A DNA stretch of 64,000 bases from Georgenia muralis (GTDB lineage Bacteria; Actinomycetota; Actinomycetes; Actinomycetales; Actinomycetaceae), in assembly GCF_003814705.1 (NCBI RefSeq), contig NZ_RKRA01000001.1, positions 3,038,001 to 3,102,000 on the forward strand, in the 5' to 3' direction. Numbering within the stretch: the stretch's first letter is position 1; each line of letters opens with the position of its first letter. Below the pieces are notes generated by a model that saw only the letters and a program-made list of their open reading frames with translations, searched no databases and was not told where the DNA came from. Shown here one piece after another: positions 408 through 59,231 of the stretch. A program made the position numbers and the translations under genes.

Positions 408-422
408 TGAATCTTTGCTGAA
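408..422 (+). promoter_or_regulatory. CopR-like direct repeat
   Basis: TGAA-TCTTTGC-TGAA is a perfect pair of TGAA half-sites 11 bp apart. It lies 72 bp before the ATG of the small membrane protein at 336. It belongs to the set of similar boxes found across the window, and 11-bp phasing is typical of OmpR/PhoB-family response regulators. Confidence 0.55.
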
Positions 423-424
423 CC

Positions 425-1213
425 TCAGACCCGGGCGCTGGTCACTCGGAGACCAGGGCTCTCACGCACCCCCTGGGTCTGATCCGACGTGACACGTCCT
501 GCGCGAAGGACGAGCAGGACGCCGACGACGACACTCGCGATCGCCCACAGCTGCGGCTGGGTCAGACTGAGCACGACGGCGTCGTTGACACGCAAGAACT
601 CGACGAGGAACCGGGACAGACCGCTGAGGACCAGGTAGACGCCGAACACCGCCAGGGGCGACAGCCGGCTGGCTATGCGCCACAGCGCGACGGCGATGAG
701 TGCTGCAGCGAGTGCCTCGTACACAGGGGTGGGGTGCACCGGCACATCGGTGGCGACGACGCCGGAGGGGAACCGCATGCCCCAGGGCAGGTCGGTGGGG
801 CGCCCGTACGTGCCGTCGCCGGACACCAGGCATCCCAGACGTCCGATCCCGTACGCCACGGTCAGCGGGACCGCCGCGGCGCCGGCCACGGGGCCCACCG
901 GCAGATGATGGCGGCGGATCACCACGAGCGCCGCCCCCAGCCCCCCGACGAGCCCGCCGTACCAGGTGAAACCCATGCCGCCGAGGTCGTGCGCGGTCAC
1001 ATCGGGCAGCCGCTCGAGCAGGAAGTAGATCTTCGCTCCGACGAACCCCCACACCGTGGCCCACAGGACCAGCGCATGGGCGGAGTCCTTCTTCAGCCCA
1101 AGCGTCTCGAACGCGCGCCCGAGCAACCATGCGGCCACGAGCGCGGCCAGAGCCTTGCTCAGACCGTAGCTCTGCACGTCGACCCCGAGGATCGAGAAAA
1201 GCACCGGTCGCAA
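425..1213 (-). CDS. Lgt-like (prolipoprotein diacylglyceryl transferase family) membrane protein
   Basis: This 262-aa polytopic membrane protein has the Lgt fold. True Lgt moves a diacylglyceryl group from phosphatidylglycerol to the lipobox Cys of prelipoproteins. Visible landmarks are WYGGL (where Lgt usually has HGGL), GRLGC...YGRPT (usually GRIGNFINGE.WGR) and HPTPVYEAL. The conserved loop His is therefore Tyr, and the Asn of the signature is Cys, so ordinary Lgt chemistry is uncertain. The start is TTG at 1213 with GGAG five bases upstream; a GTG at 1204 is an alternative. A near-perfect CopR-like box lies at 1322-1336. Two larger Lgt-like genes occur at 8477 and 38823. Confidence 0.75.
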   Translation of the reverse strand: MRPVLFSILGVDVQSYGLSKALAALVAAWLLGRAFETLGLKKDSAHALVLWATVWGFVGAKIYFLLERLPDVTAHDLGGMGFTWYGGLVGGLGAALVVIRRHHLPVGPVAGAAAVPLTVAYGIGRLGCLVSGDGTYGRPTDLPWGMRFPSGVVATDVPVHPTPVYEALAAALIAVALWRIASRLSPLAVFGVYLVLSGLSRFLVEFLRVNDAVVLSLTQPQLWAIASVVVGVLLVLRAGRVTSDQTQGVRESPGLRVTSARV

Positions 1214-1321
1214 GGCAACTCCGTTCGGCCGCGGACGCGTGCAGAACCCCGGCCGGTCGGCCGGTTCGGCGCGTCGATGCCAGTCTTCCGGGCGCTCCCG
1301 AACGACAGGTGGCCAGTACGG

Positions 1322-1336
1322 TCAAAATCCGGTGAA
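1322..1336 (+). promoter_or_regulatory. CopR-like direct repeat, one mismatch
   Basis: TCAA-AATCCGG-TGAA lies about 110 bp before the start of the Lgt-like gene at 1213 and just beyond the end of the M23 peptidase gene. It has one mismatch from TGAA-N7-TGAA and shares the extended CCGGTGAA with the boxes at 408 and 6392. Confidence 0.4.
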
Positions 1337-1384
1337 GTTCGCCGCTACCGGCCGACGGCCGCCCAACGCACGGCACGGACCGCG

Positions 1385-3085
1385 TTACCGCACCTGGGAG
1401 ATGTCGACCGCACCTTGGTCCTCGAGCCAGGTCAGCGGTTCGGTGGTGGTGAGGTTATCGTCGGTGTGCACCTCGAAGTGCAGGTGTGGCCCTGTCGAGC
1501 GCCCGTAGTTGCCGACCCCGGCGATGACGTCTCCCGCGCTCACCTGCTGGCCGACCTCGACGTACATGCCGTCGGGATCCTCGTGGTTGTACCAGGTGTA
1601 GACGGTGCGGTCGTCGATCTCGTGCTCGAGGATGATGAGCATGCCCGAACGACCTGCCTTGCCCGGGCCCACGTAGGTCACCGTGCCGTCGGCGACGGCG
1701 TAGATGGGCGTCTTCAGGGGGGCCGCGAAGTCGACCCCAGCGTGGTAGTCCCTTCCGGGCCCCAACGGATTGTTGCGCCAGCCGTAGAGGGATGTGATCC
1801 GGTAGGCGCCCTGGGCCACCGGCATGACGATCCGCTCCTGCGGGACCACCGCGGCCAGCGCGCCGTTGGCGCCGTCGATGCCGCCGGTGGGAAGAGCGCC
1901 GCGGGTCCCTGCCCGCGACGCCTGGGTGATCAGGGCCCGGCCGGCTGCGGTGGGGTCGGCAAGCAGGCTGGTCGGCGGAACCACCGTCGCCCCGGCTGCT
2001 GCGGCGTCGAGCGTTACAAGGACGCTCGCCCGCGTCGACACCGAGGTCGCGGCGGACGCTTGCGCGCCGTGCCCCGGCTCTGCCGCACCCAGCAACGGGG
2101 CACCTATGGTCAGCACACCCAGCACGCCGGCGACCATGGCACGCCCTGCGGTGTTGCGGTGCCCCCCCGGTTCGGCGGATCGCCGGCGCCGGCGCCTCGA
2201 GCCGGGCCGAGGCTCGCACGACGCCGCGGACAGGATCTCGGTGCGGTCCTCCTCGACAACCGGGAGCTCCGTTCCTCTCCGTGCCGCGTTGGCGGTCCCC
2301 ACGATCGCCCGCCATCGGCGGTCCAGCTCCTCGGGTTCCACCGGCGCCGCCTGGGCGGCCCCCTCCGGTGCTGCCGGGGTCGTCAGTGCACGCTCGGGCA
2401 CCGTACGACCCGTGGCGGCGTGGTCGTCGGGTCGGACCGGCCTCACCGCGTGCTCGGGTGGGCGGAGGAGGCCGACGCCGGGTGGTGGAGTGGCCGCTCT
2501 CGCGCCGTCCGCGGGCGAGGACCGCTTCGCTGGTTGAGCCGCTGAGGGGGACGGGGCACCGTCCGTCGCTGGTCCGGGCTCCTCGGATGCAGCCGGTGCG
2601 CCGCTCGGCGACGAGGCAGGCGCAAGGTCTCCGTCCGCCAGGGTGCGCCGCTCGCGACGGGTGCTCGCACCGGCTGACGCCGCCGACGGGCGAGCCACGG
2701 GGTTCGCTCCCGTGGCTGGTGGGGGGGAGGGCGGCTCGGACCGGTGAGCGTCGGGGGAACCGGCCTCGCGGAGCTGGCGCCGGGTCGGAGCGGGAGCGGG
2801 CGGTTGGTCGGCCTGTCGGAGCTGGCGCCGGGTCACCGCGGCAGCCGGGGGTTGGTCGGCCTGTCGGAGCTGGCGCCGGGTCACCGCGGCAGCCGGGGGT
2901 TGGTCGGCCTGTCGGAGCTGGCGCCGGGTCACCGCGGCAGCCGGCGGTTGCTTCCGCACCTCGTCGCGGAGAAGGTCGGCAGGTTCCCTGACGGGATCCG
3001 GGGAGGGGTCGAGTTCGAACCCGTCGCGGACGGTGCGCCGGGTCGACCGTGCCCGAGCCTGCGATGCGGGCACAGCAGTGGACAT
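1385..3085 (-). CDS. M23-family metallopeptidase with repeat-rich cytoplasmic N-terminus
   Basis: This 566-aa protein has a C-terminal M23/LytM domain (about residues 440-555) with the zinc motifs HAGVDFA and HLHFEVH. It is predicted to cut peptidoglycan cross-bridges. A single membrane span lies near residues 318-338, placing the peptidase outside. The first 310 residues are Pro/Ala/Arg-rich and low complexity, with three exact and one diverged copy of RRQLRQADQPPAAAVT at about residues 50-110. Start ATG at 3085, stop TAA. The domain is typical of actinobacterial cell-wall hydrolases; the long basic N-terminus is unusual. No copper link is visible apart from position. Confidence 0.85.
   Translation of the reverse strand: MSTAVPASQARARSTRRTVRDGFELDPSPDPVREPADLLRDEVRKQPPAAAVTRRQLRQADQPPAAAVTRRQLRQADQPPAAAVTRRQLRQADQPPAPAPTRRQLREAGSPDAHRSEPPSPPPATGANPVARPSAASAGASTRRERRTLADGDLAPASSPSGAPAASEEPGPATDGAPSPSAAQPAKRSSPADGARAATPPPGVGLLRPPEHAVRPVRPDDHAATGRTVPERALTTPAAPEGAAQAAPVEPEELDRRWRAIVGTANAARRGTELPVVEEDRTEILSAASCEPRPGSRRRRRRSAEPGGHRNTAGRAMVAGVLGVLTIGAPLLGAAEPGHGAQASAATSVSTRASVLVTLDAAAAGATVVPPTSLLADPTAAGRALITQASRAGTRGALPTGGIDGANGALAAVVPQERIVMPVAQGAYRITSLYGWRNNPLGPGRDYHAGVDFAAPLKTPIYAVADGTVTYVGPGKAGRSGMLIILEHEIDDRTVYTWYNHEDPDGMYVEVGQQVSAGDVIAGVGNYGRSTGPHLHFEVHTDDNLTTTEPLTWLEDQGAVDISQVR
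2804..2947. repeat. 48-bp tandem repeat, three copies, inside the M23 gene
   Basis: Three head-to-tail 48-bp units start at 2804, 2852 and 2900, each opening TTGGTCGGCCTGTCGG and nearly identical to the next. A diverged fourth copy lies just upstream (about 2770-2803). They encode the 16-residue unit RRQLRQADQPPAAAVT on the minus strand. Near identity suggests recent expansion. Confidence 0.9.
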
Positions 3086-3306
3086 GCGAGCAACCTCCGG
3101 ACGGCGGGGAACGTGGACCGCGCGACGCCGAGCGGATAGTCACAGAACGATAACGGCCGGTTGGTCGCCCACCGCACAGCCTGGGCGTCCTTCGTCGCAT
3201 CTTCACCAACTGCACATCTTCGGACCCCGGATCGACAACGTCGGGACGCAGTCGACGGAAGCCAGACCTCGGTTTCCCGTCACTGGGCATGGTGTCGAGC
3301 GCGCGG

Positions 3307-3759
3307 TCAGGAGTCGTGATGGACCTCGTGGTCCACGGTCTCGGTGACCGAGGGCTGGGTGGGGCCGTCGGCTCCGTTGTCACCGCTGATTCGTGGCCCG
3401 ATGACCAAGGAGGAGAGCGCGAACATGCCCGTGAAGACGATGAGGGCGATCGCCGGAGCCCACCAGCTCGTGAAACGACGCTTGAGCTTGATGAGCATGG
3501 GGACGGAGGCGACCAGACCGAGGGCACCGAAGAGAGCGGTGCCCCCGGCGCCGGCCACCACGGCAGTGCCGACCAGCGGCCCCACGTGGTGCAGGACGTG
3601 CGGGGCCAGCCCCATGAGGGCACCCAGCACACCCGTCAGGGCTGTCCAGACGCTGCGACGGCGGCCCGGCGCCACATCCGTGGGTACGGCGGTCGTGATC
3701 AGGTCTTGGTAAGGCGTCTTGTCCTGCGTCGGAGCTTCGGTGGGGTTCATGACCGCCAT
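3307..3759 (-). CDS. Conserved membrane protein, unknown function
   Basis: This 150-aa protein reads from ATG 3759, preceded by GTGGGGGC at good spacing; ATG 3750 is an alternative. Hydrophobic spans lie at about residues 38-85 (two helices, containing HVLHHVG) and 95-118. The tail carries SLVIGPRISGDNGA and ends in HEVHHDS, a possible metal-binding His cluster. A decayed relative with VSTFIVGPRISG and DAHHYQPG is readable at 40445-40775, so this is a small paralogous family within the island. A perfect CopR-like box sits at 3798-3812 directly upstream. I do not recognise a named family. Confidence 0.7.
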   Translation of the reverse strand: MAVMNPTEAPTQDKTPYQDLITTAVPTDVAPGRRRSVWTALTGVLGALMGLAPHVLHHVGPLVGTAVVAGAGGTALFGALGLVASVPMLIKLKRRFTSWWAPAIALIVFTGMFALSSLVIGPRISGDNGADGPTQPSVTETVDHEVHHDS

Positions 3760-3797: not shown

Positions 3798-3812
3798 TGA
3801 AGGACCGATGAA
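3798..3812 (+). promoter_or_regulatory. CopR-like direct repeat
   Basis: TGAA-GGACCGA-TGAA is a perfect half-site pair with 11-bp phasing, 39 bp before the ATG of the membrane protein at 3759. Confidence 0.55.
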
Positions 3813-3963
3813 GTGCTGAGCCGGTGCGGGGCACGGTGTGGCGGCGCACCGGCTTCAGCGTTTCTCCATGGATCGGTCGAGGTGATCTTCGGGGCGCCGG
3901 GGAACCATGGGTCCGGTCGGACGACGCGCAAGCCGCAGCCGGCGCCGGCGGAGGGAGACTCTC

Positions 3964-4253: not shown

Positions 4254-4655
4254 GTGATCCGTCCGCGAGCGCTCACCGCTTGGGTCAGTGGCGCAGTGCA
4301 GGCGCCGTCCGCGTCGTCAAGTCCCAGGTCGTCCCCGTCGAGAGGAGACCGCCCTCGTGCGGCCCCACCGTCGCAGCGGGCCGAGCTGACGGTGTGCGGC
4401 TCGTACTTCCCCCAGGTCGTCACCTTGGCTGCCGGCGTGCCCACGGTCCTGAGCGTTCATCGCCAGGAGGGGTCCTGGTGCTCTGAGCAGCTTCACATCC
4501 CAGAGCTCGGTGTCGTGGTCGATCTGCCGTGCTTCGAGCGCACGGAGATCGAACTGCCTGCCCTGCCTGTCGGCTGTTATGAGTTCACCTGTGGAATGGA
4601 GATGCTCCACGGCACGCTCGCCGTGGGCGAGTCCGGGGTCTTCAGCGAACCTTGA
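4254..4655 (+). CDS. Small cupredoxin-like copper-binding protein
   Basis: This 133-aa protein starts at GTG 4254 behind GGAGGGAGGTGGG. After a Ser/Pro/Arg-rich 40-residue leader without a clear signal peptide comes a cupredoxin-like beta domain (about 43-126). It carries Cys76 (WCSEQL) and a C113-G-M-E-M117 motif, the likely copper ligands. The same C-S...C-G-M-x-M-x-x-G pattern occurs in the N-terminal domain of the copper ATPase at 20146 and, degraded, in the gene at 12940. It lies 99 bp before the multicopper oxidase in the same direction. A role in binding copper for that oxidase is an inference. Confidence 0.75.
   Translation: MIRPRALTAWVSGAVQAPSASSSPRSSPSRGDRPRAAPPSQRAELTVCGSYFPQVVTLAAGVPTVLSVHRQEGSWCSEQLHIPELGVVVDLPCFERTEIELPALPVGCYEFTCGMEMLHGTLAVGESGVFSEP
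4641..4655 (+). promoter_or_regulatory. CopR-like direct repeat overlapping the preceding stop codon
   Basis: TTCA-GCGAACC-TTGA lies 100 bp before the multicopper oxidase start and overlaps the end of the cupredoxin gene. Its first 11 bases equal those of the perfect box at 59217, with one mismatch in the second half-site. Because it overlaps coding sequence it is less certain than the intergenic boxes. Confidence 0.4.
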
Positions 4656-4754: not shown

Positions 4755-6296
4755 GTGTCCCCGTTATCCGCAGAGCCAATGGGTCGTCGCCGGTTCCTCC
4801 AGGTGGGTGCCGCCGGTCTGGTGGTGATCGGTGGTGGGGCGTTCGCCGGCACCCGGCTGTTCGACCAGCCCAGTCCGGGCCCGATCGGTCCTGGGACTGA
4901 CCTGGTCGCCCGGACCGAGGCGGCTCGGCGCAGGAGCGGCACGGTGGTGCGTCGTGAGTTGCGGGCGGCCGCTACCGAGGTCGATCTCGGGGGCCGGGTG
5001 GTGCGGACGTGGGCCTATGACGGCACAGTGCCGGGACGGGAGATTCGCGTGCGGGCCGGGGACGAGCTGCGGGTCCGGTTGGTCAACGACCTGCCTGCGG
5101 AGACGACGGTGCACTGGCACGGTTTGGCGTTGCGCAACGACATGGACGGTGTGCCAGGTCTGACCCAGGACGCGGTGGCGCCGGGCGCGGGGTTCGACTA
5201 CTCCTTCGTCGTCCCCGACCCGGGTACGCACTGGTTCCACCCGCACGTGGGCGTCCAGCTCGACACCGGCCTCCAGGCCCCGCTCATCGTGGAGGACCCG
5301 GCCGAGCCGGGCGGCTACGACATGGAGGTCGTCCTGGTCCTGGACGACTGGACGGACGGCTGGGGCGACTCGCCGGAGACCATCCTCGAGCGCATGGCCC
5401 GAGAGGGCATGGTCATGGGCGGCACGGCCATGGACGGCATGGGCCACGGGGGTAGCGCGATGGAGGACACCATGCCCTCCCCGGACCGGCCGCTGGGCGC
5501 CGACACCGGCGACGTCGCCCACCCCGCGCACCTCATCAACGGCCGCCTGCCCGAGGACCCCTACGTCATCCGCTCCCGGCCCGGGCACCGGGTGCGGCTA
5601 CGGATCATCAACGCCGGGAGCGACACCGCCTACCGGTTCGCGGTCGGTGGGCACACCCTGACGGTGACCCACACCGACGGCTTCCCCGTCGAGCCGGTGG
5701 ACGTCGAGACCCTCATCATCGGGATGGGGGAGCGGTATGACGTCGTCCTCACCGCGGGCGACGGCGCCTTCCCGGTGGTCGCGGTGCCCGAGGGCAAGGA
5801 CGCGCCGAGCGGCTTCGCCCTGCTGCGCACCGCCTCCGCGCACGTGCCGGTCCCGGGTGCGAGCCCCGCCGAGCTGCGCGGCCGGCTGCTCACCTACGGT
5901 GCGTTGGCCCCGACGGGTGAGGTGGCTCTCGACCCGCAAGATCCCGACCGCGAGCTCGAGCTGGCTCTGCAGATGGTCGACGGCGGCCGGAAGTGGTTCC
6001 TCAACGGCGCCGGTTTCGGCGACCACGAACCGCTGGAGATCCGAGCCGACGAGCGGGTCCGGCTGGTCCTGCGCAACGAGTCGATGATGTTCCACCCCAT
6101 GCACGTCCACGGCCATACCTTCGCCCTCGGAGCGGGCGACCGGCCCGGGATCCGCAAGGACACGGTCAACGTGCTGCCGATGGAGACCCTGACGGTGGAT
6201 CTGCAGGCGGACAACCCCGGCCAGTGGGCGGTGCACTGCCACAACATCTACCACGCCGAGCTCGGCATGACCACGGTCCTGTCCTACGTCCCCTGA
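4755..6296 (+). CDS. Tat-exported multicopper oxidase (CopO/CueO-like)
   Basis: This 513-aa enzyme is expected to oxidise Cu(I) to the less toxic Cu(II) outside the membrane. A twin-arginine signal (GRRRFLQVG, residues 10-18) and hydrophobic stretch precede three cupredoxin domains. All four copper motifs are present: HWH (120-122), HWFHPH (159-164), HPMHVHGH (447-454) and HCHNIYH (494-500) with axial Met505. A Met-rich loop near residues 212-240 (MVMGGTAMDGMGHGG) resembles the Cu(I)-binding inserts of cuprous oxidases. The start is GTG 4755. A second, ruined copy lies at 13467-13795 and 19443-19686. Function is confidently assigned to the family; Cu(I) as substrate is inferred. Confidence 0.93.
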   Translation: MSPLSAEPMGRRRFLQVGAAGLVVIGGGAFAGTRLFDQPSPGPIGPGTDLVARTEAARRRSGTVVRRELRAAATEVDLGGRVVRTWAYDGTVPGREIRVRAGDELRVRLVNDLPAETTVHWHGLALRNDMDGVPGLTQDAVAPGAGFDYSFVVPDPGTHWFHPHVGVQLDTGLQAPLIVEDPAEPGGYDMEVVLVLDDWTDGWGDSPETILERMAREGMVMGGTAMDGMGHGGSAMEDTMPSPDRPLGADTGDVAHPAHLINGRLPEDPYVIRSRPGHRVRLRIINAGSDTAYRFAVGGHTLTVTHTDGFPVEPVDVETLIIGMGERYDVVLTAGDGAFPVVAVPEGKDAPSGFALLRTASAHVPVPGASPAELRGRLLTYGALAPTGEVALDPQDPDRELELALQMVDGGRKWFLNGAGFGDHEPLEIRADERVRLVLRNESMMFHPMHVHGHTFALGAGDRPGIRKDTVNVLPMETLTVDLQADNPGQWAVHCHNIYHAELGMTTVLSYVP

Positions 6297-6391: not shown

Positions 6392-6406
6392 TGAAGAACC
6401 GGTGAA
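6392..6406 (+). promoter_or_regulatory. CopR-like direct repeat
   Basis: TGAA-GAACCGG-TGAA is a perfect pair with 11-bp phasing, 138 bp before the DUF305 lipoprotein. The 246-bp gap around it holds no gene. Confidence 0.55.
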
Positions 6407-6543
6407 GTTCCGGCTCCCGGGTGGCGCGAGGGTGCCGTCACCTTGTTCACTCGAAGGGACCGGCCACACCGGCCCGGGCCGGACGCGCTCGCGATCACCT
6501 CGTGTGAGGACGCGCCGGTCCCCCCCAGCAGAGAAGGAATCCC

Positions 6544-7188
6544 GTGAAACTTCGGACCCGCCCCGCCGCAGCCGCCGGCGCCCTCGCCCTGACCCTCGTC
6601 CTCACCGCTTGCGGCGGATCGGCGGACGAGGCCGACAGTGGTGGCGGGGCCACCACGCAGGACACGACGGCACAGACCACCACCGAGCCGGAGGAGCAGA
6701 GCGAGGAGGCGCACAACGACGCCGACACCGCCTTCGCCCAGATGATGATCGTCCATCACGAGGGCGCCATCGAGATGGCCGACCTGGCGGTCGAGAGAGC
6801 GGACTCCGAGGAGGTCCGCAGCCTCGCCGAGGGGATCTCCGCCGCCCAGGGCCCCGAGATCGAGGAGATGACCTCCTGGCTCGAGGGCTGGGGTGAGGAT
6901 GTCACCCCGATGGGCGACATGGAGGGGATGGAGGAGATGGACAGCGGCATGGACATGGACGGTATGGACCAGGAGGGCGCCATGGCCGAGCTCGATCAGC
7001 TCTCCGGTGCCGACTTCGACCGCCGCTTCCTCGAGCTCATGATCGCCCACCACGAGGGTGCCATCGAGATGGCGGAGCTCCAGAGGGCCGAGGGTGAGAA
7101 CCCGGCGGCCCTGGAGCTGGCGGACAGGATCGTCCAGGACCAGCAGGCGGAGATCACAGAGATGGAGCAGATGCTGCAGGACCTCTGA
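6544..7188 (+). CDS. DUF305-family lipoprotein
   Basis: This 214-aa secreted protein has a lipoprotein signal ending in LTAC (Cys23), so it should be anchored to the outer face of the membrane. The DUF305 domain shows its two paired-histidine helices, MMIVHHEGAIEMA (HH at 71-72) and LMIAHHEGAIEMA (HH at 169-170). Between them is a Met/Asp-rich loop (about 122-148: MGDMEGMEEMDSGMDMDGM) of copper-binding type. DUF305 proteins are frequent in copper clusters of Gram-positive bacteria and are thought to bind copper. The ATG at 6544 is preceded by AGAAGGAA. It is followed 74 bp downstream by the propeller lipoprotein. Confidence 0.9.
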   Translation: MKLRTRPAAAAGALALTLVLTACGGSADEADSGGGATTQDTTAQTTTEPEEQSEEAHNDADTAFAQMMIVHHEGAIEMADLAVERADSEEVRSLAEGISAAQGPEIEEMTSWLEGWGEDVTPMGDMEGMEEMDSGMDMDGMDQEGAMAELDQLSGADFDRRFLELMIAHHEGAIEMAELQRAEGENPAALELADRIVQDQQAEITEMEQMLQDL

Positions 7189-7262: not shown

Positions 7263-8135
7263 GTGTCCTTGCGTTCCCTCCCACTGGGCGTGGCGTTGTT
7301 CGCCCTGCCCCTCGTCCTCGGGGGTTGCTCCTCGACGTCCCCCGGAGACACGGCAGCGGAGGCCGGGGCTGCCGCGGCCCTCGGTCACGTTCACGACCTG
7401 GCGCTCAACCCGGGGGACGGCCTGGTCTACGCCGCCACCCACCTGGGCCTGTACTCCCTGGGCCGCGGCGAGCCGGCACCGGTCGGCGAGAGCAGGCAGG
7501 ACACCATGGGCTTCACGGTTCAGGGGCCGGACACCTTCCTGGCCAGCGGCCACCCCGGACCGGGCCAGGAGGGACCGGGAAACCTCGGGCTCCTCAGGAG
7601 CACAGACGCCGGTGGTAGCTGGGCCGAGGTGTCACTCGGTGGCGTCAGCGACTTCCACGCGCTGACAGCGGTCGGGGACCGCATCTACGGGCTGGACTCC
7701 TCCACCGGTGCGGTCCGGCGCAGTGACGACGGCGGGTCCACCTGGGTGGAGGGCGCCGCTATCGCCGCCCGCGACCTCGACGCCCATCCGGTCGACCCGG
7801 ACCGCGTCGTCGCCACCACCGCCGAGGGCCTCATGGCCAGCGACGACGGCGGCGCCACCTTCACGGTGGGGGACGGGCAGCCGCCCGAACCGCTTGTGGT
7901 CATCGACCATCTGCCGGCAGCAACCGGGGGCGCCGTCGTCGGCCTCGACGCCGCTGGGGTCGTGTGGCGATCGGAGCCGACCGGTTGGGTCTCTTCCGGT
8001 CCCGGCAACGGTACCCCGGCCGCGTTCACCGCCGTTGACGAGGACACCTACCTCGCGGCGTTCGACGGGACGGTGCTCCTGAAGAGCGAGGACCGGGGCG
8101 AGTCCTGGCAGCCGATCCCTGACGGCGTCAGCTGA
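7263..8135 (+). CDS. Secreted beta-propeller lipoprotein (BNR/sialidase-like repeats)
   Basis: This 290-aa protein starts at GTG 7263 and has a lipoprotein signal with lipobox LGGC (about residue 22). The body carries repeated Asp-box-like units (SDDGGSTW, SDDGGATF, SEDRGESW) of a BNR/sortilin-type propeller. It resembles the group often annotated F510_1955-family glycosylhydrolase; no enzymatic activity is shown by the motifs. It follows the DUF305 gene in one direction, probably as an operon under the box at 6392. A paralog with the same opening (HVHGLGVDPADGVLYAASH versus HVHDLALNPGDGLVYAATH) is encoded at 57929. A binding or structural role is equally possible. Confidence 0.75.
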   Translation: MSLRSLPLGVALFALPLVLGGCSSTSPGDTAAEAGAAAALGHVHDLALNPGDGLVYAATHLGLYSLGRGEPAPVGESRQDTMGFTVQGPDTFLASGHPGPGQEGPGNLGLLRSTDAGGSWAEVSLGGVSDFHALTAVGDRIYGLDSSTGAVRRSDDGGSTWVEGAAIAARDLDAHPVDPDRVVATTAEGLMASDDGGATFTVGDGQPPEPLVVIDHLPAATGGAVVGLDAAGVVWRSEPTGWVSSGPGNGTPAAFTAVDEDTYLAAFDGTVLLKSEDRGESWQPIPDGVS

Positions 8136-8476: not shown

Positions 8477-10006
8477 TCAGCCCAGCACGAGAGCGGTGGC
8501 AGATCCAGCGAGCACCGCGGCGGCTGCGACCAGGGTGACGTGACGTCCATGTCTCGTGGCGCGGGGGATGCTCCGTAGCGGGAAGAGGGTCTGGCGACCC
8601 AGCACATAGGCCGCGACCGCGAGCACGAGTACCAGACCCGAACCGGCGGCCGGCGACCTCAGGACGAGAACGAGCGCGATGACCCCTAGCGCTGCGGAGA
8701 GAGCGGACTCGAGGAGCTGCACGGGTATCCGCCGCACTCCCACCCGACGATCGGAGGACCAGACACCCCACCTCGATGATGTCGGCCGGCCGGCGCAACA
8801 CCCGCCAAGGAGGCAGCCGAGTCTGCCGACTGCCATCGCCACGAGCAGGCCCGGAGCGGTGACGTCGAGCACGGCTCCCAGTGGTAGATCGAGAAGGGAT
8901 GTGCCTGCCACGAGCGCGCCCACGGTCGCGATGACAAACCCCTGCACGGACAGCCCCGGTGTCAGGAAGCTCCTCGGTTCCCGGGGGTGGGTAAGCAGGT
9001 AGTACACCTTGGCACCTGCTAGGCCGAGCGTGCTCGCGACGACCGTGAGCCCGGCGAGGCCCAGCCCTGGGATGTCGAACTGGCGGGCCAGCAACACCTG
9101 AAGGATCAGTGCCAGGACAAATCCCGTGCCCACGAGCGCCGGCCAGGCGCCCAGACGGACCCCCGGCGCGAGGCTTCGCACGAAAGGAGCGAGCGCGGTG
9201 CGGCCCGAAGCACTGCCCCGCGACAGGCCAGGTCCGGGCGCCTCCACCCACGGGGCAGGCCCTCCGGTCGGCGCGGGCCGTACCGGCGTGGCCACCACCT
9301 CCCACTCGCCCGCGGCGACGTCCTGGATCCGAGTCGTCAAGGCGATCCGGCCCGAACCGGGCACAACGTTCTCCAACGACGACGTCACCGCGAACTCCGT
9401 GCGGCCTTCCGGCTTCGCCGAGCTGGCTTCCTCGCCGGAGCCCTGCTTCAGCCGGCCGCGGAGATGCACCGTCATGGTGTAGCGGTCGCCGGTAGGCTCC
9501 GCGTCGAACCAGTACGTCACACCCAGCGACTGCTGGTCCGCGCCCTCGAGCGCACTGCAGCTCAGATCTGTGATGACGACTGCGGAACTGGGGATGTGCC
9601 GCACCAGCCGAGGTGGCGGACCGCTCAGCGAAGTCACCGCGACGGGAACGACCTCCTCGGTCGATCGGCTCGAAAGGGGACCCTGCGCTGCGGCGACCTG
9701 TGCCGTTGCAGGGGCCCCCTCCTGAACGGACGCGACGGCGAGCCCCACGGAAGGTCGAGGGTCGGGACGCGCCGGTCTCACGCCCTCGGGACGAGCGGTA
9801 GACGACGGCGGAACGTGGGGACGGGACGGCGGAACCTGGGGACGAGGTGTCCGTACCTGACGAGGTGTCCGTACCTGCCGGAGATCACCAGGGGACGGAC
9901 GGCGGAGTGCTTTCGCGTCAGTCGGCGCCCGGAAGAAGGCTGCTCCGGCCCCCTTTTCTGGCTCCTCATCTGCCGAGGTCTGAGGGGTCGCTCCCGTGGT
10001 GTTCAT
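8477..10006 (-). CDS. Large Lgt-like membrane protein with N-terminal extension
   Basis: The chosen start, ATG 10006, gives 509 aa; an upstream in-frame start at 10045 would sit almost on the box at 10053. The first 120 residues are Pro/Arg-rich and disordered-looking. A soluble domain follows (about 135-260), beginning ITDLSCSALEG and containing SLGVTYWFDAEP. The C-terminal half is an Lgt-like membrane domain with GRLGCLLGGCCAGRPT and IPVQLLES. The classical Lgt His and Asn residues are absent and three Cys sit in the signature loop. The gene at 38823 is a close paralog along its whole length. Real diacylglyceryl transfer is doubtful; a metal or redox role is speculative. Confidence 0.75.
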   Translation of the reverse strand: MNTTGATPQTSADEEPEKGAGAAFFRAPTDAKALRRPSPGDLRQVRTPRQVRTPRPQVPPSRPHVPPSSTARPEGVRPARPDPRPSVGLAVASVQEGAPATAQVAAAQGPLSSRSTEEVVPVAVTSLSGPPPRLVRHIPSSAVVITDLSCSALEGADQQSLGVTYWFDAEPTGDRYTMTVHLRGRLKQGSGEEASSAKPEGRTEFAVTSSLENVVPGSGRIALTTRIQDVAAGEWEVVATPVRPAPTGGPAPWVEAPGPGLSRGSASGRTALAPFVRSLAPGVRLGAWPALVGTGFVLALILQVLLARQFDIPGLGLAGLTVVASTLGLAGAKVYYLLTHPREPRSFLTPGLSVQGFVIATVGALVAGTSLLDLPLGAVLDVTAPGLLVAMAVGRLGCLLGGCCAGRPTSSRWGVWSSDRRVGVRRIPVQLLESALSAALGVIALVLVLRSPAAGSGLVLVLAVAAYVLGRQTLFPLRSIPRATRHGRHVTLVAAAAVLAGSATALVLG

Positions 10007-10052
10007 CGTATCGATTGTCGCCTGACCGGGAGCCGTGACTGTCAACTATCGA

Positions 10053-10067
10053 TGAAGGTTCGACGAA
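10053..10067 (+). promoter_or_regulatory. CopR-like direct repeat, one mismatch
   Basis: TGAA-GGTTCGA-CGAA lies in the divergent gap between the Lgt-like gene (start 10006) and lnt (start 10179), so it could serve either. Confidence 0.4.
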
Positions 10068-10178
10068 GGAATCTCGCCTGCGTGCCCGCGCGGTGGGCAG
10101 TTCTCACCGTTCCTCATGAATGGCCGCACCGGACTCGATCCTTCGACTGGCTCGCTTGACGATCTCCGGTGAGAGGAT

Positions 10179-11903: not shown

Positions 11904-12702
11904 GATGAGGTCGGGCACCACCGCACGGCACCGCACCGCTCTCTTGCCGGACGCCGCCGACGCGACGCGGGCCACCAGCGCCCCTATCCGGCGCCTGCGC
12001 CGGGCTCCGGCGGCGCAGGCTGTCGGTCTCGCCGGTGAGCTCTTGCTGACCGCCGGAGTGCTGCTCGCGCTGTTCGTCGTCTGGCAGGTGTGGTGGACCG
12101 ACGTCGTCGCCGCCCGGGAGCAGCGAGCGACGGTCACGGCGATGGAGGACAGCTACACCGTCCCCGAGGTGCTCGAGCCGGCCCGGGCGCGGACCGAAGA
12201 ACCCCCGCCCGAGATGCGCGCGGTGAGCGAGGGGGAGCCGTTCGCGACGCTGCACGTGCCCCGATGGGGGCGCGCCTACGAGGTCCCCATCACCGAGGGA
12301 GTCAGCACGGACGTGCTCGACACCGGGGCTGCCGGTCACTACCCCGGCACCGCGCTACCCGGCGAGATCGGAAACTTCGCCCTGGCCGCGCACCGCCAGA
12401 CCTACGGCGCGGCCTTCCGGTATGTCGACACCCTCGAGGTCGGGGACCCCCTGATCGTCGAGACCGCCGACGCATGGTTGGTGTACCGCGTGCGGGAGGA
12501 CTACATCGTCGAGCCCGACAAGGTCGAGGTCCTGGCCCCGACCCCCAACCAGCCGGACGTGCCGGCGACTGAACGACTGATCACCTTCACCACGTGCCAC
12601 CCGCTGTGGAGCACCGCGCAACGGTGGATCACGCACGGAGTCCTCGAGCGGTGGATCCCCAGGTCGGAAGGCGTGCCTGCCGAGCTGTTGCAGGACGGCT
12701 GA
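11893..12702 (+). CDS. Class E sortase
   Basis: This 269-aa single-span protein has its membrane anchor near residues 44-66 and an extracytoplasmic sortase domain (about 112-262). The catalytic residues are visible: His167 (AAHRQ), Cys235 (TTCHP) and Arg244 (AQRW). Class E sortases of actinobacteria attach surface proteins, usually with LAXTG motifs, to peptidoglycan. The frame overlaps the end of lnt: GTG 11893 lies inside lnt and ATG 11905 just after its stop, so either start is coupled to lnt. No sortase substrate was seen in the window. The following 237 bp hold no recognisable gene. Confidence 0.88.
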   Translation: MRGEMRSGTTARHRTALLPDAADATRATSAPIRRLRRAPAAQAVGLAGELLLTAGVLLALFVVWQVWWTDVVAAREQRATVTAMEDSYTVPEVLEPARARTEEPPPEMRAVSEGEPFATLHVPRWGRAYEVPITEGVSTDVLDTGAAGHYPGTALPGEIGNFALAAHRQTYGAAFRYVDTLEVGDPLIVETADAWLVYRVREDYIVEPDKVEVLAPTPNQPDVPATERLITFTTCHPLWSTAQRWITHGVLERWIPRSEGVPAELLQDG

Positions 12703-13350: not shown

Positions 13351-13466
13351 AGTCAGCCACCTCCACACCACGAACGGGTAGGTACAGGCCATCGCAGACT
13401 GATGTCGGTGGCCACCGCCGGATGATGAAGACATGACGAAGAGTCCGGCCGTCCGCCTCTTCAGGG

Positions 13467-15749: not shown

Positions 15750-15779
15750 GGCCGGCGACCGCTGGCCGTCTCGGCATAG

Positions 15780-49644: not shown

Positions 49645-49649
49645 CGTTC

Positions 49650-50432
49650 TCACACCAGCGTCTCGAAGTTGGCGACCAGGCCCTGCAGGTATCCCGACAG
49701 CAGGCCCCACAGCCCGGTGACCATGGCCAGCCCGAGCGCGACGAGCAAGGCCCCGCCCAGACGTTGGACCCTCAGACGGTGTCGGCGCAGGAATCCCAGT
49801 ACCCGGGTCGAGCGCGAGAACGCCATCGCCAGCACCACGAAGGGTACGCCGAGGCCGAGACTGTAGGCCAGGACGAGAACGGCCCCGCGTGCCGGGTCGG
49901 CTTCGCTGAAGGACAACGTCAGGACAGCGGCCAGGGTGGGGCCCATGCACGGTGCCCAGCCGAGCCCAAACACGACGCCGAGGAGGGGAGCCCCCCACAC
50001 TCCCTGACGCGGACTCAGGTGCAGGCGGTAGTCACGTTGAAGGAAGGGCACGGCGCCCATGAAGGCCAGCCCCATGAGGATGACGAGTACGCCCATCGCG
50101 CGCACGATCGCGTCCATCCAGGGGGCGAGAACTATTCCTGCCCAGGCGAACACCACGCCGAGCAGCACGAAGACGGCGGTGAAGCCCGCCACGAAGAGCA
50201 GCACGCCGGTGAGCATCCGCCCGTTGCCGACCCATGATCGACGGTCACGTTCGGAATCTCCTTGAGCGCCGACCATGCCACCGAGGTAGCCGACATAACC
50301 GGGAAGCAGGGGGAGCACGCACGGGGAGGCGAAGGAGATGGCTCCGGCGACCGCGGCCACGGGCAGGGCGGCGAGCATCGGTCCGGTGAGCACGGTCGAC
50401 TGAAAGAGGTTGGCGATCTGGTCCCAGTCCAT
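49650..50432 (-). CDS. ccdA: Thiol-disulfide transmembrane transporter CcdA
   Basis: This 260-aa protein has six membrane spans of the DsbD/CcdA type with the conserved Cys pair in [16 protein letters not shown] and [15 protein letters not shown]. It passes reducing equivalents from cytoplasmic thioredoxin to extracytoplasmic TlpA-like proteins so apocytochrome c thiols stay reduced. It is flanked by the TlpA-like gene (3-base gap) and resB (5-base gap). Copper ions oxidise thiols, so copper-inducible expression of this step would make sense, and a CopR-like box lies upstream of the operon. Confidence 0.94.
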
Positions 50433-50435
50433 AGG

Positions 50436-51092
50436 TCAGATCTCCTCGGCCAGGGCGTCGTCGATCAGGCCTCTGAGGATGGTCGGGTCGACCTGGCCCA
50501 GGATGCGGGCGGACACACGCCCCTGGCGGTCCATGACTACCGTCGTGGGCATCGCCTGGAGGGGGACGAGGCCTTCGAAGGCAGCCACCCCGCGGGCGTC
50601 GGCGTCGTTCAGGGACGGGTAGGGGACTTCGAAGGTGCGCTCGAACGCCTGCGCCGTTCCGACGTCGTCGCGGGGGTTCACGCCGAGCATCTCCACGCCG
50701 TCGGGGGAGTAGTCCTCGTAGATGGCCTTCAGATCTGGTGCCTCGGCACGGCACGGCGGACACGCGGCGTACCAGAAATTCACCACCACCACATCACCAC
50801 GCCAGTCGGCCAGGTCCAGCTCGTCCCCGGCGTAGGTGGTGCCCACCAGGGAGATGGGCGCGGCGCGCTCCTCCGGGGCCCAGGTGGCGAAGGTGCCATC
50901 TCCGGCCACATAGCCACCGCCTGCGCTGTCGGAGGTGGTGACTGTCGAACCGCCAGGGGCGCAGGCGCTGAGCAGCAGGGCCAGGACCGCGGAGATGGCT
51001 ACTGCGAGGTTTCGACGTGTGCGCAAGCGTGCCGGCCGGGGACGCCAGCGGTGGGACGGACTGCGGCTGACGACTGGGTTCACTGCAGACAC
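50436..51092 (-). CDS. TlpA/ResA-like thiol-disulfide reductase lipoprotein
   Basis: The start is taken as GTG 51092, giving 218 aa with a lipoprotein signal (LALLLSAC, Cys44). The thioredoxin domain (about 75-215) has the redox motif Cys111-Pro-Pro-Cys114 in FWYAACPPCR and the cis-proline in LQAMPTTVV. It should reduce apocytochrome c thiols at the outer membrane face using electrons from CcdA. Upstream in-frame starts up to 51275 would add an implausible leader and spoil the signal peptide. The first gene of the maturation operon; a perfect CopR-like repeat lies 208 bp upstream. Confidence 0.88.
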   Translation of the reverse strand: MSAVNPVVSRSPSHRWRPRPARLRTRRNLAVAISAVLALLLSACAPGGSTVTTSDSAGGGYVAGDGTFATWAPEERAAPISLVGTTYAGDELDLADWRGDVVVVNFWYAACPPCRAEAPDLKAIYEDYSPDGVEMLGVNPRDDVGTAQAFERTFEVPYPSLNDADARGVAAFEGLVPLQAMPTTVVMDRQGRVSARILGQVDPTILRGLIDDALAEEI

Positions 51093-51299
51093 TTCACAAC
51101 TCTCGGTAACGGTCGACCCCGTGGGGCTTTGCCTGCCTGCCACGGGCGGGTACCACGACTCGGACCAGCGCCCCAACCACAGTGGCCGGACCGTGATTCG
51201 GTCCAGTGGCGAGTGCCACGGGCCGGACATGCCGAAGACGGGACCATCGTCTCTGGTAGAACCAAGAAACTCCAACGACCCCCCTCACGCGACCTAATC

Positions 51300-51314
51300 T
51301 TCAGTGAATCTTCA
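51300..51314 (+). promoter_or_regulatory. CopR-like direct repeat
   Basis: TTCA-GTGAATC-TTCA is a perfect pair. On the minus strand, in the direction of the cytochrome maturation operon, it reads TGAAGATTCACTGAA, the closest match in the window to the C. glutamicum CopR half-site TGAAGATTT. Confidence 0.6.
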
Positions 51315-55093: not shown

Positions 55094-55228
55094 CTCGGTC
55101 TTCTGCTTCCACCGCAACAGGGCGTCCGTCGGGGGTGGATGCCCGGATGCCTCCGTCCGCATGACGCATGCCCGGGGAGGACGGTCCTTTGGTCACGTCC
55201 GTCGGCCGTGGGTGGCCCGGAGCAACGA

Positions 55229-55243
55229 TTCACCGAAGGTTCA
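55229..55243 (+). promoter_or_regulatory. CopR-like direct repeat (repeat copy 2)
   Basis: TTCA-CCGAAGG-TTCA, identical to the box at 36478 and duplicated with it. Confidence 0.55.
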
Positions 55244-55301
55244 TCAGATGATGCACGCCTGTACCCCCGACGCGGGGGAGACTTCACCCACCCGAAGCCC
55301 C

Positions 55302-55316
55302 TACCCCCTCCGGGTA
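55302..55316 (+). promoter_or_regulatory. Probable CsoR operator, imperfect (repeat copy 2)
   Basis: TACCCCCTCCGGGTA, identical to 36551-36565, 29 bp before the second SGNH gene. Confidence 0.5.
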
Positions 55317-55345
55317 TTCGAACCTGTGACGAGAGGACGACGACG

Positions 55346-56197
55346 ATGCGAACGGTTGACCTCCAGCACCCCGGCGACGAGCTCGGCGCCCAACGCGCGG
55401 GACACCGTGTGAGGGGTGGCGCGGTCGGGGCCACCGGAGGAGGCGCTCTGGCCCTGATGACGGTGATGACGGCCCTGGCCGCGGCGCTCGCCCGGGGCCA
55501 GGTGGCCGCGTTGCGCCGACGGGACTGGCCCTCGACGGCCCCCCTGGCGGTGGATGTGACGGTGACCCCGTCCACGGGCGCCGGTGCCGGCGTCGTCGAG
55601 CTCGGGGCGTTCGGTGACTCGGCCATGGCGGGCGTCGGCGTCGACCGGCTCGACGACGTCCTGTCGGTACAGCTTGCCCAGCGGGTGGCCGACGCGACTG
55701 GGCGTGCCGTGCACGTGGTGGGCTACGCCCGTTCGGGTGCGCGGACCCTGGACGTGCTGACCCGGCAGGTCCCGGCGGTGCGCCGGACACCTGACGTATC
55801 GGTCCTGGTTGTCGGCACGAACGACGTCATCCACGCCACCTCACCGCTCGCGTTGACCCGCACTTGTGAGGCGATGCTCGACGCGCTCGAGACGATCGGT
55901 GCGCCCGTGGTGATGTCGAGCCTGCCGGAGTTCCGGGCCATGCGGGCGCTGCCGGGACCTGTGATGTCGGCGGCACGCGGGTACGGCAGCATGGTCGGGG
56001 CGGTCCAGCGCCGCGCAGCGGCCCCACGGCCGCGGGTGCGCCTGGTCGACGTCGTCGGTGCCGTGGGTGAGGAGTTCGTCGAGGACCCGGACATGATGAG
56101 CACCGACTCCTTCCACCCCTCCGCTGCCGGCTACGGCCGGATCGCCGACGCCCTGGCCCCTGCCGTCCTCGCCCACCTCCGAGCGGCCGAGCGCTGA
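55346..56197 (+). CDS. SGNH/GDSL-type hydrolase, copy 2
   Basis: This 283-aa protein is nearly identical to the one at 36595, with the same catalytic blocks (FGDSAMAG, VGTNDV, DSFHPSAAGY). It differs by a two-residue deletion near residue 80 and by its last ten residues, where the repeat ends (APAVLAHLRAAER). It is not followed by a cyclopropane synthase; the next gene is a convergent UbiB-family kinase. Both catalytic sites look functional, so this is a recent duplication with its copper-type promoter. Confidence 0.85.
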   Translation: MRTVDLQHPGDELGAQRAGHRVRGGAVGATGGGALALMTVMTALAAALARGQVAALRRRDWPSTAPLAVDVTVTPSTGAGAGVVELGAFGDSAMAGVGVDRLDDVLSVQLAQRVADATGRAVHVVGYARSGARTLDVLTRQVPAVRRTPDVSVLVVGTNDVIHATSPLALTRTCEAMLDALETIGAPVVMSSLPEFRAMRALPGPVMSAARGYGSMVGAVQRRAAAPRPRVRLVDVVGAVGEEFVEDPDMMSTDSFHPSAAGYGRIADALAPAVLAHLRAAER

Positions 56198-57928: not shown

Positions 57929-58837
57929 TTACCGGCCGAGCGTGATGGGGTAGCGGACCTCGAAGGTCCTACCGCCGTCGGTCGAGGTGTAGACGCCCGT
58001 GTCGGTGGCGACGTGGACGGTGGCGAGGTCCTCGGCCGTCAGGGCTGCGGCCGGTCCGTCCAGGGTGCCGCGCGGCTGCCAGGTGGTGCCCCCGTCGGGG
58101 CTGGTGAGCACCGTCCCATCGGGGTCGGTGCCGTACACCACACCGGGGTCCGGCCACGCCAGCGTGGCCAGGACCGGGGTTCCCGGCAGCGGTGTGAAGG
58201 ACCGACCGCCGTCTTCGCTGCGCCGCAGCCCGCCGTCGGCGGCGACGGCCAGGAGGGTCCCGGTGTCGGCCGGGTTGGCTGCCAGGGCAGTCATCACCAT
58301 CGTGGACCGCGCTTGCCACGTCTGCTGGTCAACGGTGACGAGCAGCCGGCCGGCGGTGCTGTCGTAGCCGTAGAGGAGGCCGCCCGCGGGCTGCAGGACG
58401 TGGAAGTCGCTCACGCCCTGCCGGGAGAGCGCCTCCCAGGTCTCCCCGGCGTCGCGGCTCTCGATGAGGCCGAGCATGTCCGGTTCATCCTCGCGCAGGT
58501 CCGGGTGGCCGCTGGCGAGGAACCGGTTGGGTCCGACCACGGTGAAGGCCATGGTGTCCTGCCATCGGTCGGCGACCCGCTCGGCCTTGCCCGAGGGGTC
58601 CTCAGGAAGGCGGAACAGGCCCGTGTGGCTCGCCGCGTACAGGACACCGTCGGCGGGGTCGACGCCGAGGCCGTGTACGTGCATGAGGACGTTGGCGAAC
58701 TCGTCCGTCGGCTGCGCCTGCCCCGGCACCCCCCGCAGCACCAGCCACGTCGCGCCGCCGCCCAGCGCAAGGGCGATGGCTGCGACGGTAAGGGTCGCGT
58801 GCCGGACACGCCGCACGGGTCCTGCACCATCGGGCAT
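57929..58837 (-). CDS. Membrane-anchored beta-propeller protein, paralog of the gene at 7263
   Basis: This 302-aa protein has an N-terminal signal anchor (about 14-34) in place of the lipobox seen in its paralog. Asp-box repeats follow (SRDAGETW, SEDGGRSF, SPDGGTTW, STDGGRTF) of BNR/sortilin type. MHVHGLGVDPADGVLYAASH and RWQDTMAFTV match the paralog at 7263. The start codon lies one base after the YHS gene stop, so both are expressed from the CsoR/CopR-type promoter at 59165-59231. Function unknown; the repeated link with copper promoters suggests a secreted factor of copper tolerance. Confidence 0.78.
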   Translation of the reverse strand: MPDGAGPVRRVRHATLTVAAIALALGGGATWLVLRGVPGQAQPTDEFANVLMHVHGLGVDPADGVLYAASHTGLFRLPEDPSGKAERVADRWQDTMAFTVVGPNRFLASGHPDLREDEPDMLGLIESRDAGETWEALSRQGVSDFHVLQPAGGLLYGYDSTAGRLLVTVDQQTWQARSTMVMTALAANPADTGTLLAVAADGGLRRSEDGGRSFTPLPGTPVLATLAWPDPGVVYGTDPDGTVLTSPDGGTTWQPRGTLDGPAAALTAEDLATVHVATDTGVYTSTDGGRTFEVRYPITLGR

Positions 58838-58838
58838 G

Positions 58839-59123
58839 TCAGGCGGCGGTGTACGCCAGCGGGTCGGCGTCGAAGGTCTCGGCGCAGTGCCCGCAGCAGA
58901 AGTAGTAACGCTCGCCCTCGAAGTCGCGCACGAGCCCGCTCGCCTCGGCCCGCGAGCGCACCGTCGGGTTGCCCATCACCGCGCAGGTGACCACGTCGTC
59001 GCCGGGGCCGGCGACGACGTCGCCGTGGTGGCCGTGGTCGTGGCCCCCGTCGGAACAACAGCCGCCCCCACCGTTACCCCCGTGCTTGTGGTCGTGGTCG
59101 TGGTCCTCGTGGTTGTGATCCAT
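58839..59123 (-). CDS. His-rich YHS-domain metal-binding protein
   Basis: This 94-aa protein starts at ATG 59123 behind GGAGGAG. The first 36 residues are extremely His/Asp/Gly-rich (DHNHEDHDHDHKHGG, CCSDGGHDHGHHGD). A YHS-type domain follows (about 43-90) with TCAVMGNPT and YYFCCGHC, closely resembling the C-terminal YHS domain of the copper ATPase at 20146 ([14 protein letters not shown]). It is probably a cytoplasmic copper or other soft-metal buffer. It is the first gene after both a CsoR palindrome and a CopR-like box. Confidence 0.85.
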   Translation of the reverse strand: MDHNHEDHDHDHKHGGNGGGGCCSDGGHDHGHHGDVVAGPGDDVVTCAVMGNPTVRSRAEASGLVRDFEGERYYFCCGHCAETFDADPLAYTAA

Positions 59124-59164
59124 CACGCTCCTCCTTCGGTCGTCGTGCCATCTCGTGACGAGGC

Positions 59165-59179
59165 TACCCCCGCGGGGTA
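59165..59179 (+). promoter_or_regulatory. CsoR operator
   Basis: TACCCCCGCGGGGTA is a symmetric 15-bp palindrome 41 bp before the YHS gene start, with the same outer words and length as the operator at 19795. Confidence 0.8.
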
Positions 59180-59216
59180 TGACGTCAGGCGCGCGGAAGC
59201 CCGAACGGGCCATGTC

Positions 59217-59231
59217 TTCAGCGAACCTTCA
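59217..59231 (+). promoter_or_regulatory. CopR-like direct repeat
   Basis: TTCA-GCGAACC-TTCA is a perfect pair 93 bp before the YHS gene, placed upstream of the CsoR palindrome. That order, an activator site then a repressor site, is logical for dual copper control. Confidence 0.6.

Follow-up and report, generated by a model that had tools for sequence, protein, structure and literature searches.

Which regulator reads the direct repeat TGAA-N7-TGAA that recurs in promoter regions along one stretch of the Georgenia muralis genome, and which genes would it govern? The stretch, here called the window, comprises 64,000 nucleotides of contig NZ_RKRA01000001.1 (positions 3,038,001 to 3,102,000, forward strand); positions below are counted from its first letter, negative numbers lying to its left. 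An original prediction, made from the letters alone, had likened the repeat to the operator of CopR, the copper two-component regulator of Corynebacterium glutamicum. Here, we establish by computation the form of the motif, its clustering, its conservation, its co-occurrence with CopR and the family of the regulator, and propose that the boxes are very probably the operators of a CopR-type regulator of the OmpR family encoded 132 bp left of the window, a reading drawn from sequence comparison.

A clustered 11-bp direct repeat

All seven perfect pairs that had been claimed are present (408, 3798, 6392, 36478, 51300, 55229 and 59217), and in 100 dinucleotide shuffles of the window such pairs numbered 0.12 on average and one at most, with none of the 100 reaching seven. 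The pairs at 36478 and 55229 are copies within one duplicated segment (36358-37099 and 55109-55844; a GDSL-lipase gene plus its upstream region, with 300-nt pieces 99% and 95% identical), and therefore six, not seven, of the window pairs are independent. The claim of a fixed spacing holds: in the 144 kb around the window ten direct pairs are separated by seven bases, giving the 11-bp period, against none to three at any other gap between 0 and 24. Across the 4.14-Mb single-contig genome there are 22 pairs against three for the reversed pattern, and ten of the 22 are packed into 82.5 kb (binomial 5e-12).

The matrix used to sharpen the motif, a position weight matrix (PWM), was built from 40 distinct exact TGAAG-N6-TGAAG sites from 41 loci that lie outside the genus as far as known, and the inner bases left unforced in these sites read [A/G]TTCG[A/C]. 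The sharper motif, TGAAG[A/G]TTCG[A/C]TGAAG, has the same form as the TGAAG(R)TTCGnTGAA read earlier from the window. When the matrix was run over the 144 kb, 15 sites scored at least 18 (hereafter strong) against a mean of 0.06 and a maximum of two in 200 first-order Markov sequences, and 27 scored at least 11 against 1.81 expected. The called genes cover 83.5% of the region yet contain none of the 15 and none of the 27, which agrees with the promoter location claimed for the boxes and not with equal frequency in coding DNA; genes were called by a home-made script with an open reading frame (ORF) cut-off score of 15, and the ORF at 4392-4655, which falls below it, was counted as non-coding. 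Control loci off the island, biased because they were chosen for holding the pattern, gave six matches of 10-13 or more in 96 kb.

A clustering that arose by chance or from repeats, and that had no regulatory role, would accommodate the two window pairs that form one duplicated segment. It is hard to reconcile with 15 sites where 0.06 are expected, all outside called genes, kept in a sister species and matched by the same motif beside CopR elsewhere; given the enrichment, the non-coding placement and the conservation, we reject it as having a negligible probability.

Nine strong sites fall in the window. Three of them (3190, 13426 and 19732) were absent from the earlier list, and the other six (3798, 4641, 6392, 10053, 51300 and 59217) score 22.9-32.9. 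Among the boxes with one mismatch named previously, 4641 and 10053 proved strong, 1322 is weak only and 54252 was rejected at a matrix score of 6.6; the window has 12 one-mismatch sites, of which that list had four. Of the boxes called weaker, 33715 (11.1) and 43630 (13.2) stay as weak candidates, and 42041, which scores below 6 and so is not among the matches of at least 6, was rejected. The weak class (scores of 11.1-13.2) comprises 408, 1322, 36478, 55229, 33715 and 43630.

It is the base following TGAA that bears on a second explanation, in which the sites are PHO boxes of a phosphate regulator of the PhoP, PhoR or RegX3 type. PHO boxes, too, are direct repeats of 11-bp period built on TGAA; the C. 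glutamicum PhoR motif, CCTGTGAAaatCCTGTGAA, contains TGAA-N7-TGAA (excerpts of PMC3353115), and C or T follows TGAA in the weak boxes 408 and 36478/55229. The genome also has four TGAAC-N6-TGAAC boxes, two at a cluster of PstS-like and ABC transporter genes, one at phoX and one at an exonuclease-like gene. However, no TGAAC-N6-TGAAC box lies in the island: G follows both TGAA cores in 12 of the 15 strong island sites, and TGAAG-N6-TGAAG occurs seven times there and three times elsewhere in the genome. Whereas the phosphate-type boxes have C after TGAA and are followed by other genes, the island boxes have copper genes as neighbours and track CopR across genomes. The four-base core TGAA cannot separate copper from phosphate boxes; the fifth base does. 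On that base and the gene context together the PHO-box reading was rejected for the G-type boxes, and we consider it very unlikely.

A CopR-type regulator beside the window

A search for a copRS-type pair outside the window had been proposed, and such a pair adjoins it on the left, with boxes in its divergent promoter:

-1936 to -1262: OmpR-type response regulator gene copR (receiver and Trans_reg_C domains, Pfam)
-1235 to -132: HAMP histidine kinase gene copS, adjoining copR

A SHOCT-domain gene and a gene for a multicopper oxidase diverge from the pair. The earlier statement that the window itself holds no sensor or regulator is correct for CopR-like proteins, since none of the six in the genome (E 1e-50) lies there, and the 37 window ORFs scanned with Pfam include no kinase or response regulator, but it overlooked a CsoR-family repressor gene.

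The C. glutamicum CopR motif had been given correctly, the excerpts of PMC3140484 giving TGAAGATTTgaTGAAGATTT with an 11-bp period. The short extracytoplasmic loop of CopS reads FHDHM...HAE here against the published LFHDHMLMTGREDPSLELFHAEQAYRDAN, with three loop histidines common to both. Because the CopS loop encoded by the Corynebacterium plasmid pLEW279b is identical to the published C. glutamicum loop, the plasmid can stand in for that species; it is described as 97% similar to the C. glutamicum cop region (PMC3140484, in part), and in it a TGAAGATTTGATGAAG box lies 109 bp ahead of the conserved start of copR and overlaps the annotated one. Identity alone is not decisive, since the CopR of pLEW279b (56% identical to the G. 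muralis protein) lies below the island's second regulator (58%). On a tree, the pLEW279b protein falls inside 37- and 39-row clades that hold the G. muralis CopR, and the second island regulator falls outside them, with support values of 94/92 and 92/91, which do not reach the starred level of the tree tool. With this moderate support, the regulator appears to group with C. glutamicum-type CopR, apart from its paralogue.

A different regulator of the genome might instead be the main binder, either the second CopR (925 kb) or the island's second regulator (70628-71365). The former, 75% identical, belongs to a second copRS locus with an oxidase (924-930 kb), where a TGAAG box scores 17.1; the latter is the 58% identical protein, and the box at 73761 lies 5' of a same-strand gene run leading down to it. 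Its place outside the CopR clade and the occurrence of the motif beside CopR relatives in many genera make this explanation improbable, though paralogous regulators may share half-sites. At another locus (L017:4898-4913) a TGAAG box lies 5' of the gene for a different response regulator (53% identical to CopR), whose kinase is without the CopS loop histidines.

For the CopR encoded beside the window, we infer a mechanism, from copper signal and phosphorylation to binding and direction of effect, in which CopS would sense excess copper through the three histidines of its short loop and phosphorylate CopR. A head-to-tail dimer of phosphorylated CopR would bind two or more direct 11-bp units TGAAG[A/G]TTCG[A/C] and turn on both the copRS operon and some fifteen promoters spread over a copper island of 86 kb. 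The regulon so predicted would serve the oxidation, export and binding of copper (DUF305 and DUF326 for binding), the maturation of thiols and of cytochrome c, and also lipoprotein modification (Lgt-like proteins, Lnt) and peptidoglycan hydrolases (M23, NlpC).

Conservation and co-occurrence with CopR

In the sister species G052, whose CopR is 96% identical, the island is syntenic and all 15 strong sites have a counterpart scoring at least 18. This species is close, with aligned promoter pieces mostly 77-99% identical. Over 17 pairs of sister sites, half-site positions are identical in 167 of 170 cases against 554 of 680 in the flanks, a comparison that leans to conservation as 15 of the pairs were chosen as found in both genomes; the count of 15 strong sites with counterparts is free of this bias.

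The 80 loci drawn from named genomes divide into 26 whose CopR relative is at least 54% identical and 54 below that value. Exact TGAAG pairs in the first group number 20 at 11 bp against 0-2 at each other spacing from 7 to 19; in the second they number eight at 11 bp against 1-16 at other spacings. The family survey spanned 121 genomes, 12 of them with a CopR relative at least 69% identical (above a gap from 69 to 62%; in one of them the match is partial). With up to one mismatch, TGAAGRTTYGMTGAAG matched 42 times in these 12 (reversed control, one) against 47 times in the other 109 (control, 19), as raw counts from groups whose genome sizes differ. Within the genus, four genomes with CopR hold five, four, four and five matches, and three without it hold none, one and none. 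At a matrix score of at least 18, a box lies within 450 bp of the CopR gene in 18 of 41 loci, and before DUF305 genes in 18 of 26 cases, Grx-like genes in seven of ten and NlpC genes in five of seven, in counts where most loci also trained the matrix, some share one genome and two come from the same genus.

Several observations weigh against assigning the boxes to CopR. The 20 exact sites are confined to nine of the 26 loci, the other 17 being without one, and the 54% and 69% identity cuts were chosen after the lists had been seen. In ten of 16 loci with a CopR at least 69% identical, no box scoring at least 15 was found within 700 bp upstream of copR, and in L066, where CopR is 80% identical, no site of at least 18 was found in 17.9 kb. 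Conversely, a perfect TGAAGATTTGATGAAG box occurs in four genomes without a close CopR relative (G017, G071, G075 and G034). Within G. muralis, box orientation relative to the gene is mixed, individual sites of 11-13 bits are weak candidates only, and three further regulators (75, 58 and 53% identical), one of them with its own TGAAG box, could share sites.

Strong sites and their predicted target genes

The idea that one regulator serves many genes retains strong boxes at the oxidase, at cytochrome c maturation and between Lgt-like gene 2 and lnt; the boxes at lipid-enzyme genes (36478/55229) are weak. The strong sites follow, with PWM scores where available and those of the sister counterparts.

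-6052: strong CopR-type box at a Grx-like gene with CcdA-like (by eye; no Pfam hit) and redoxin genes
-4152: strong CopR-type box at an NlpC gene
-2193/-2204: CopR-type boxes of three tandem units in the copR/oxidase divergent promoter (PWM 21.0 and 13.7)
-2054: CopR-type box in the same promoter (PWM 27.3)
3190-3205, minus strand: CopR-type box TGAAGATGCGACGAAG, about 105 bp 5' of the M23 peptidase ORF 1385-3085 (minus strand) (PWM 19.9; sister 23.8)
3798-3813, plus strand: CopR-type box 5' of ORF 3307-3759 (minus strand), which is without a Pfam match (PWM 23.8; sister 18.2)
4640-4655, minus strand: CopR-type box 5' of the multicopper oxidase gene, within the low-scoring ORF 4392-4655 (PWM 24.9; sister 24.9)
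6392-6407, plus strand: CopR-type box 5' of the DUF305 and F510_1955 genes (PWM 22.9; sister 22.9)
10042-10068, plus strand: three tandem 11-bp units in the gap between Lgt-like gene 2 and lnt (10053, PWM 24.9; 10042, 12.3; sister 24.9 and 16.4)
13426-13441, plus strand: box-like site in the insertion-sequence region, with an alternative ORF (13433-13843) beginning inside it (PWM 19.5; sister 19.5, DNA 98% identical)
19732-19747, minus strand: CopR-type box 5' of the cupredoxin-ATPase-YHS fusion gene (PWM 18.5; sister 18.5, DNA 99% identical)
51299-51314, minus strand: CopR-type box 5' of the cytochrome c maturation operon (PWM 32.9; sister 29.9)
59216-59231, minus strand: CopR-type box 5' of the small YHS/TRASH-like gene and an F510_1955 gene (PWM 30.2; sister 30.2)
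73761: strong CopR-type box 5' of a DUF326 gene (Csp1 match below the NCBIfam cut-off)
80340: strong CopR-type box at a DUF418 gene or an ArsR-like (by eye)/P-ATPase pair

The window genes named above, in order, are these:

1385-3085, minus strand: M23 peptidase gene (PF01551)
4779-6296, plus strand: multicopper oxidase gene (PF07732, PF07731, PF00394)
6544-7188, plus strand: DUF305 gene (PF03713)
7290-8135, plus strand: F510_1955 family gene (NF045728, over cut-off)
10389-12702, plus strand: apolipoprotein N-acyltransferase gene (to 11903) and sortase gene (11893-12702) (PF20154, PF00795, PF04203)
20176-22926, plus strand: cupredoxin-copper ATPase-YHS fusion gene (PF13473, PF00122, PF04945; TIGR01511 over cut-off)
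46925-51026, minus strand: cytochrome c maturation operon with TlpA-like, DsbD/CcdA-like, ResB and Ccs-type assembly proteins (PF00578, PF02683, PF05140, PF01578)
57929-59123, minus strand: F510_1955 gene and a small gene whose YHS/TRASH match is just below the Pfam cut-offs

The weak candidates are as follows:

397-423, plus strand: three imperfect units 5' of the small genes 178-336 and -148-181 (minus strand) (PWM 7.1 at 397, 11.9 at 408; largely kept in the sister)
1322-1337, plus strand: weak box 5' of Lgt-like gene 1, 425-1204 (minus strand) (PWM 11.7; sister 11.7)
33714-33729, minus strand: weak candidate 5' of ORF 33828-34151 (PWM 11.1; sister 11.1)
36477-36492, minus strand: weak candidate before GDSL-lipase/CMAS genes, copy 1 of the duplicated segment, with half-sites TGAAC/TGAAT (PWM 12.4; similar sister site 15.0)
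43629-43644, minus strand: weak candidate 5' of the G6PDH gene 42074-43546 (PWM 13.2)
55228-55243, minus strand: weak candidate, copy 2 of the duplicated segment (PWM 12.4)

For the box at 43629, no counterpart was found among the sister matches of at least 11, one inner base being different. In the locus counts given above, where most loci also trained the matrix, a strong box precedes the Lgt1-like gene in four of five loci elsewhere.

Lgt-like and Lnt genes in the island

The genome has four LGT-domain genes, three of them in the island, and two LNT_N genes, one of them in the island. The island Lgt-like genes all carry the LGT domain:

425-1204, minus strand: Lgt-like gene 1, altered signature GRLGCLVSGDGTYGRPT (PF01790)
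8477-10045, minus strand: Lgt-like gene 2, signature GRLGCLLGGCCAGRPT, start codon uncertain (PF01790)
38823-40880, minus strand: Lgt-like gene 3, signature GRLGCLLGGCCTGRPT (PF01790)

In Escherichia coli the Lgt signature is GRLGNFINGELWG, and the E151A and E151Q variants are inactive (PMC4728403, in part). The canonical signature GRLGN-FINGE-LWG, with N146 and E151, is absent from the three island copies, which read GRLGCLVSGDGTYG, GRLGCLLGGCCAG and GRLGCLLGGCCTG against GRLGNYFNQELYG in the copy outside the island. Apart from GRLGCLVSGDGTYG, the island copies follow the pattern GRLGCLLGGCC[A/T]G, and in a hand alignment N146 is replaced by C and E151 by D or C. The island Lnt, by comparison, has three motif segments nearly as in the other genome copy. 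These non-canonical Lgt-like proteins are concrete candidates for altered activity. For Lgt-like gene 3 the matrix scan found no strong box.

MtrA-like elements and promoter geometry

Some of the boxes have a companion element:

3139-3154, minus strand: MtrA-like element GTTATC-N5-GTGAC, 35 bp after the 3190 box

GTTAYC-N3-7-GTGAC, a pattern defined after about six of its nine cases had been seen, occurs nine times in 882 kb of loci, each time no more than about 100 bp from a CopR box (106 boxes; 0.24 expected). All nine have N5 spacing, and six sit 3-4 bp after the box. The sequence fits the published form of Streptomyces MtrA sites, GtnAcC-n5-GTnAcn with N5 spacing (excerpts of PMC13189361), and, as with MtrA boxes, several lie at NlpC or M23 promoters; the position 3-4 bp after a predicted CopR box sets the six apart. 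Five N5 elements occur in the genome, three of them beside CopR boxes (the NlpC, M23 and 80340 promoters). In 12 genomes there are 44 (reversed control, one), and 13 of these belong to three genomes of the genus that have no close CopR, so the element does not go with CopR alone. MtrA may act at such composite promoters.

Where the gene lies in the direction in which TGAAG points, 58 cases showed no outstanding -10-like column, and a simple search for TANNNT across 97 sites found fewer than six matches at every position. For genes on the other side, in sequences that are partly related, A stands at -40 in 27 of 43 cases and T at -36 in 29 of 43; these columns would fit a -10 element on the opposite strand, placed at a constant distance, a pattern that is suggestive only.

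Relation to known systems

The C. glutamicum CopRS system, as given in excerpts of PMC3140484 and PMC3353115, is alike in its OmpR-type regulator and HAMP kinase with three histidines in a short loop, in its 11-bp direct repeat TGAAGATTT-N2-TGAAGATTT, and in being divergent from a multicopper oxidase cluster with copper export and TlpA-like genes. Unlike the about fifteen strong sites over 86 kb here, a single CopR site is reported there; ccsA and ccsB are copper-induced in those excerpts with no CopR site reported, whereas the G. muralis cytochrome c maturation operon has its own box. In Listeria and Enterococcus, the copper-induced lit2/lgt2 operon (PMC8275575, in part) likewise ties lipoprotein-modifying genes to mobile copper resistance. 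It belongs to another phylum, however, and here the genes are Lgt-like paralogues of altered signature and Lnt, with a CopR-type box; among the Pfam-scanned proteins, which cover part of the genes, Lit had no match.

Plasmids carry comparable gene sets, and a CopR relative (E 1e-40) occurs in 59 of 72,556 plasmid records. Plasmid pCha1 of Corynebacterium halotolerans has lnt, ccsB, resB, ccdA, tlpA, an oxidase, cueP, copRS and DUF305, with one site of at least 18, at copR (16.7 kb covered); a Cellulomonas plasmid has a peptidoglycan metalloendopeptidase, lgt, copRS, ccdA, DUF305 and lnt, with three sites. On plasmids, then, genes for lipoprotein modification, the wall and cytochromes can move together with copRS.

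In the open-licence literature surveyed, we recognised no description of a multi-site CopR regulon or of copper-controlled Lgt or Lnt in actinobacteria. The multi-site CopR regulon, the Lgt-like proteins of altered signature and the MtrA-like element beside some CopR boxes would appear to be new. The motif offers a means to read copper regulons across actinobacteria, and by its sites a single predicted copper switch would serve lipoprotein modification, wall hydrolases and cytochrome c maturation. A tie between copper resistance and lipoprotein enzymes, familiar from Firmicutes, thereby becomes testable in a second phylum. More tentatively, and less probably than not, copper may trigger a dedicated remodelling of the envelope, CopR (at some promoters with MtrA) switching on the Cys-signature Lgt-like enzymes, the extra Lnt and the peptidoglycan hydrolases. 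If so, lipoprotein acylation and wall turnover would shift under copper stress, in an actinobacterial parallel to the Firmicute lit2/lgt2 operon with a plasmid-borne gene set.

Other genes and the insertion region

Two further copper genes lie in the window:

23006-23308, plus strand: CsoR-family metal-sensitive repressor gene (PF02583)
24715-27285, plus strand: second copper-type P-ATPase gene (TIGR01511 over cut-off)

Within the latter, 18-bp tandem units at 24939-25208 encode a His/Asp-rich stretch. At 31462-33363 an NhaA antiporter domain is fused to a DsbA/thioredoxin domain, and on the right side of the window a gene run (59526-66805) resembles by eye the subunits of a membrane NADH dehydrogenase or antiporter complex. 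The insertion region (13433-19661) contains a Mu/rve-type transposase and, flanked by 121-nt inverted arms, three further ORFs (15780-18924) that resemble integrases by eye. It also carries second copies of two segments of the multicopper oxidase gene, at 13563 and 19443 (98% identical to 5233 and 5460).

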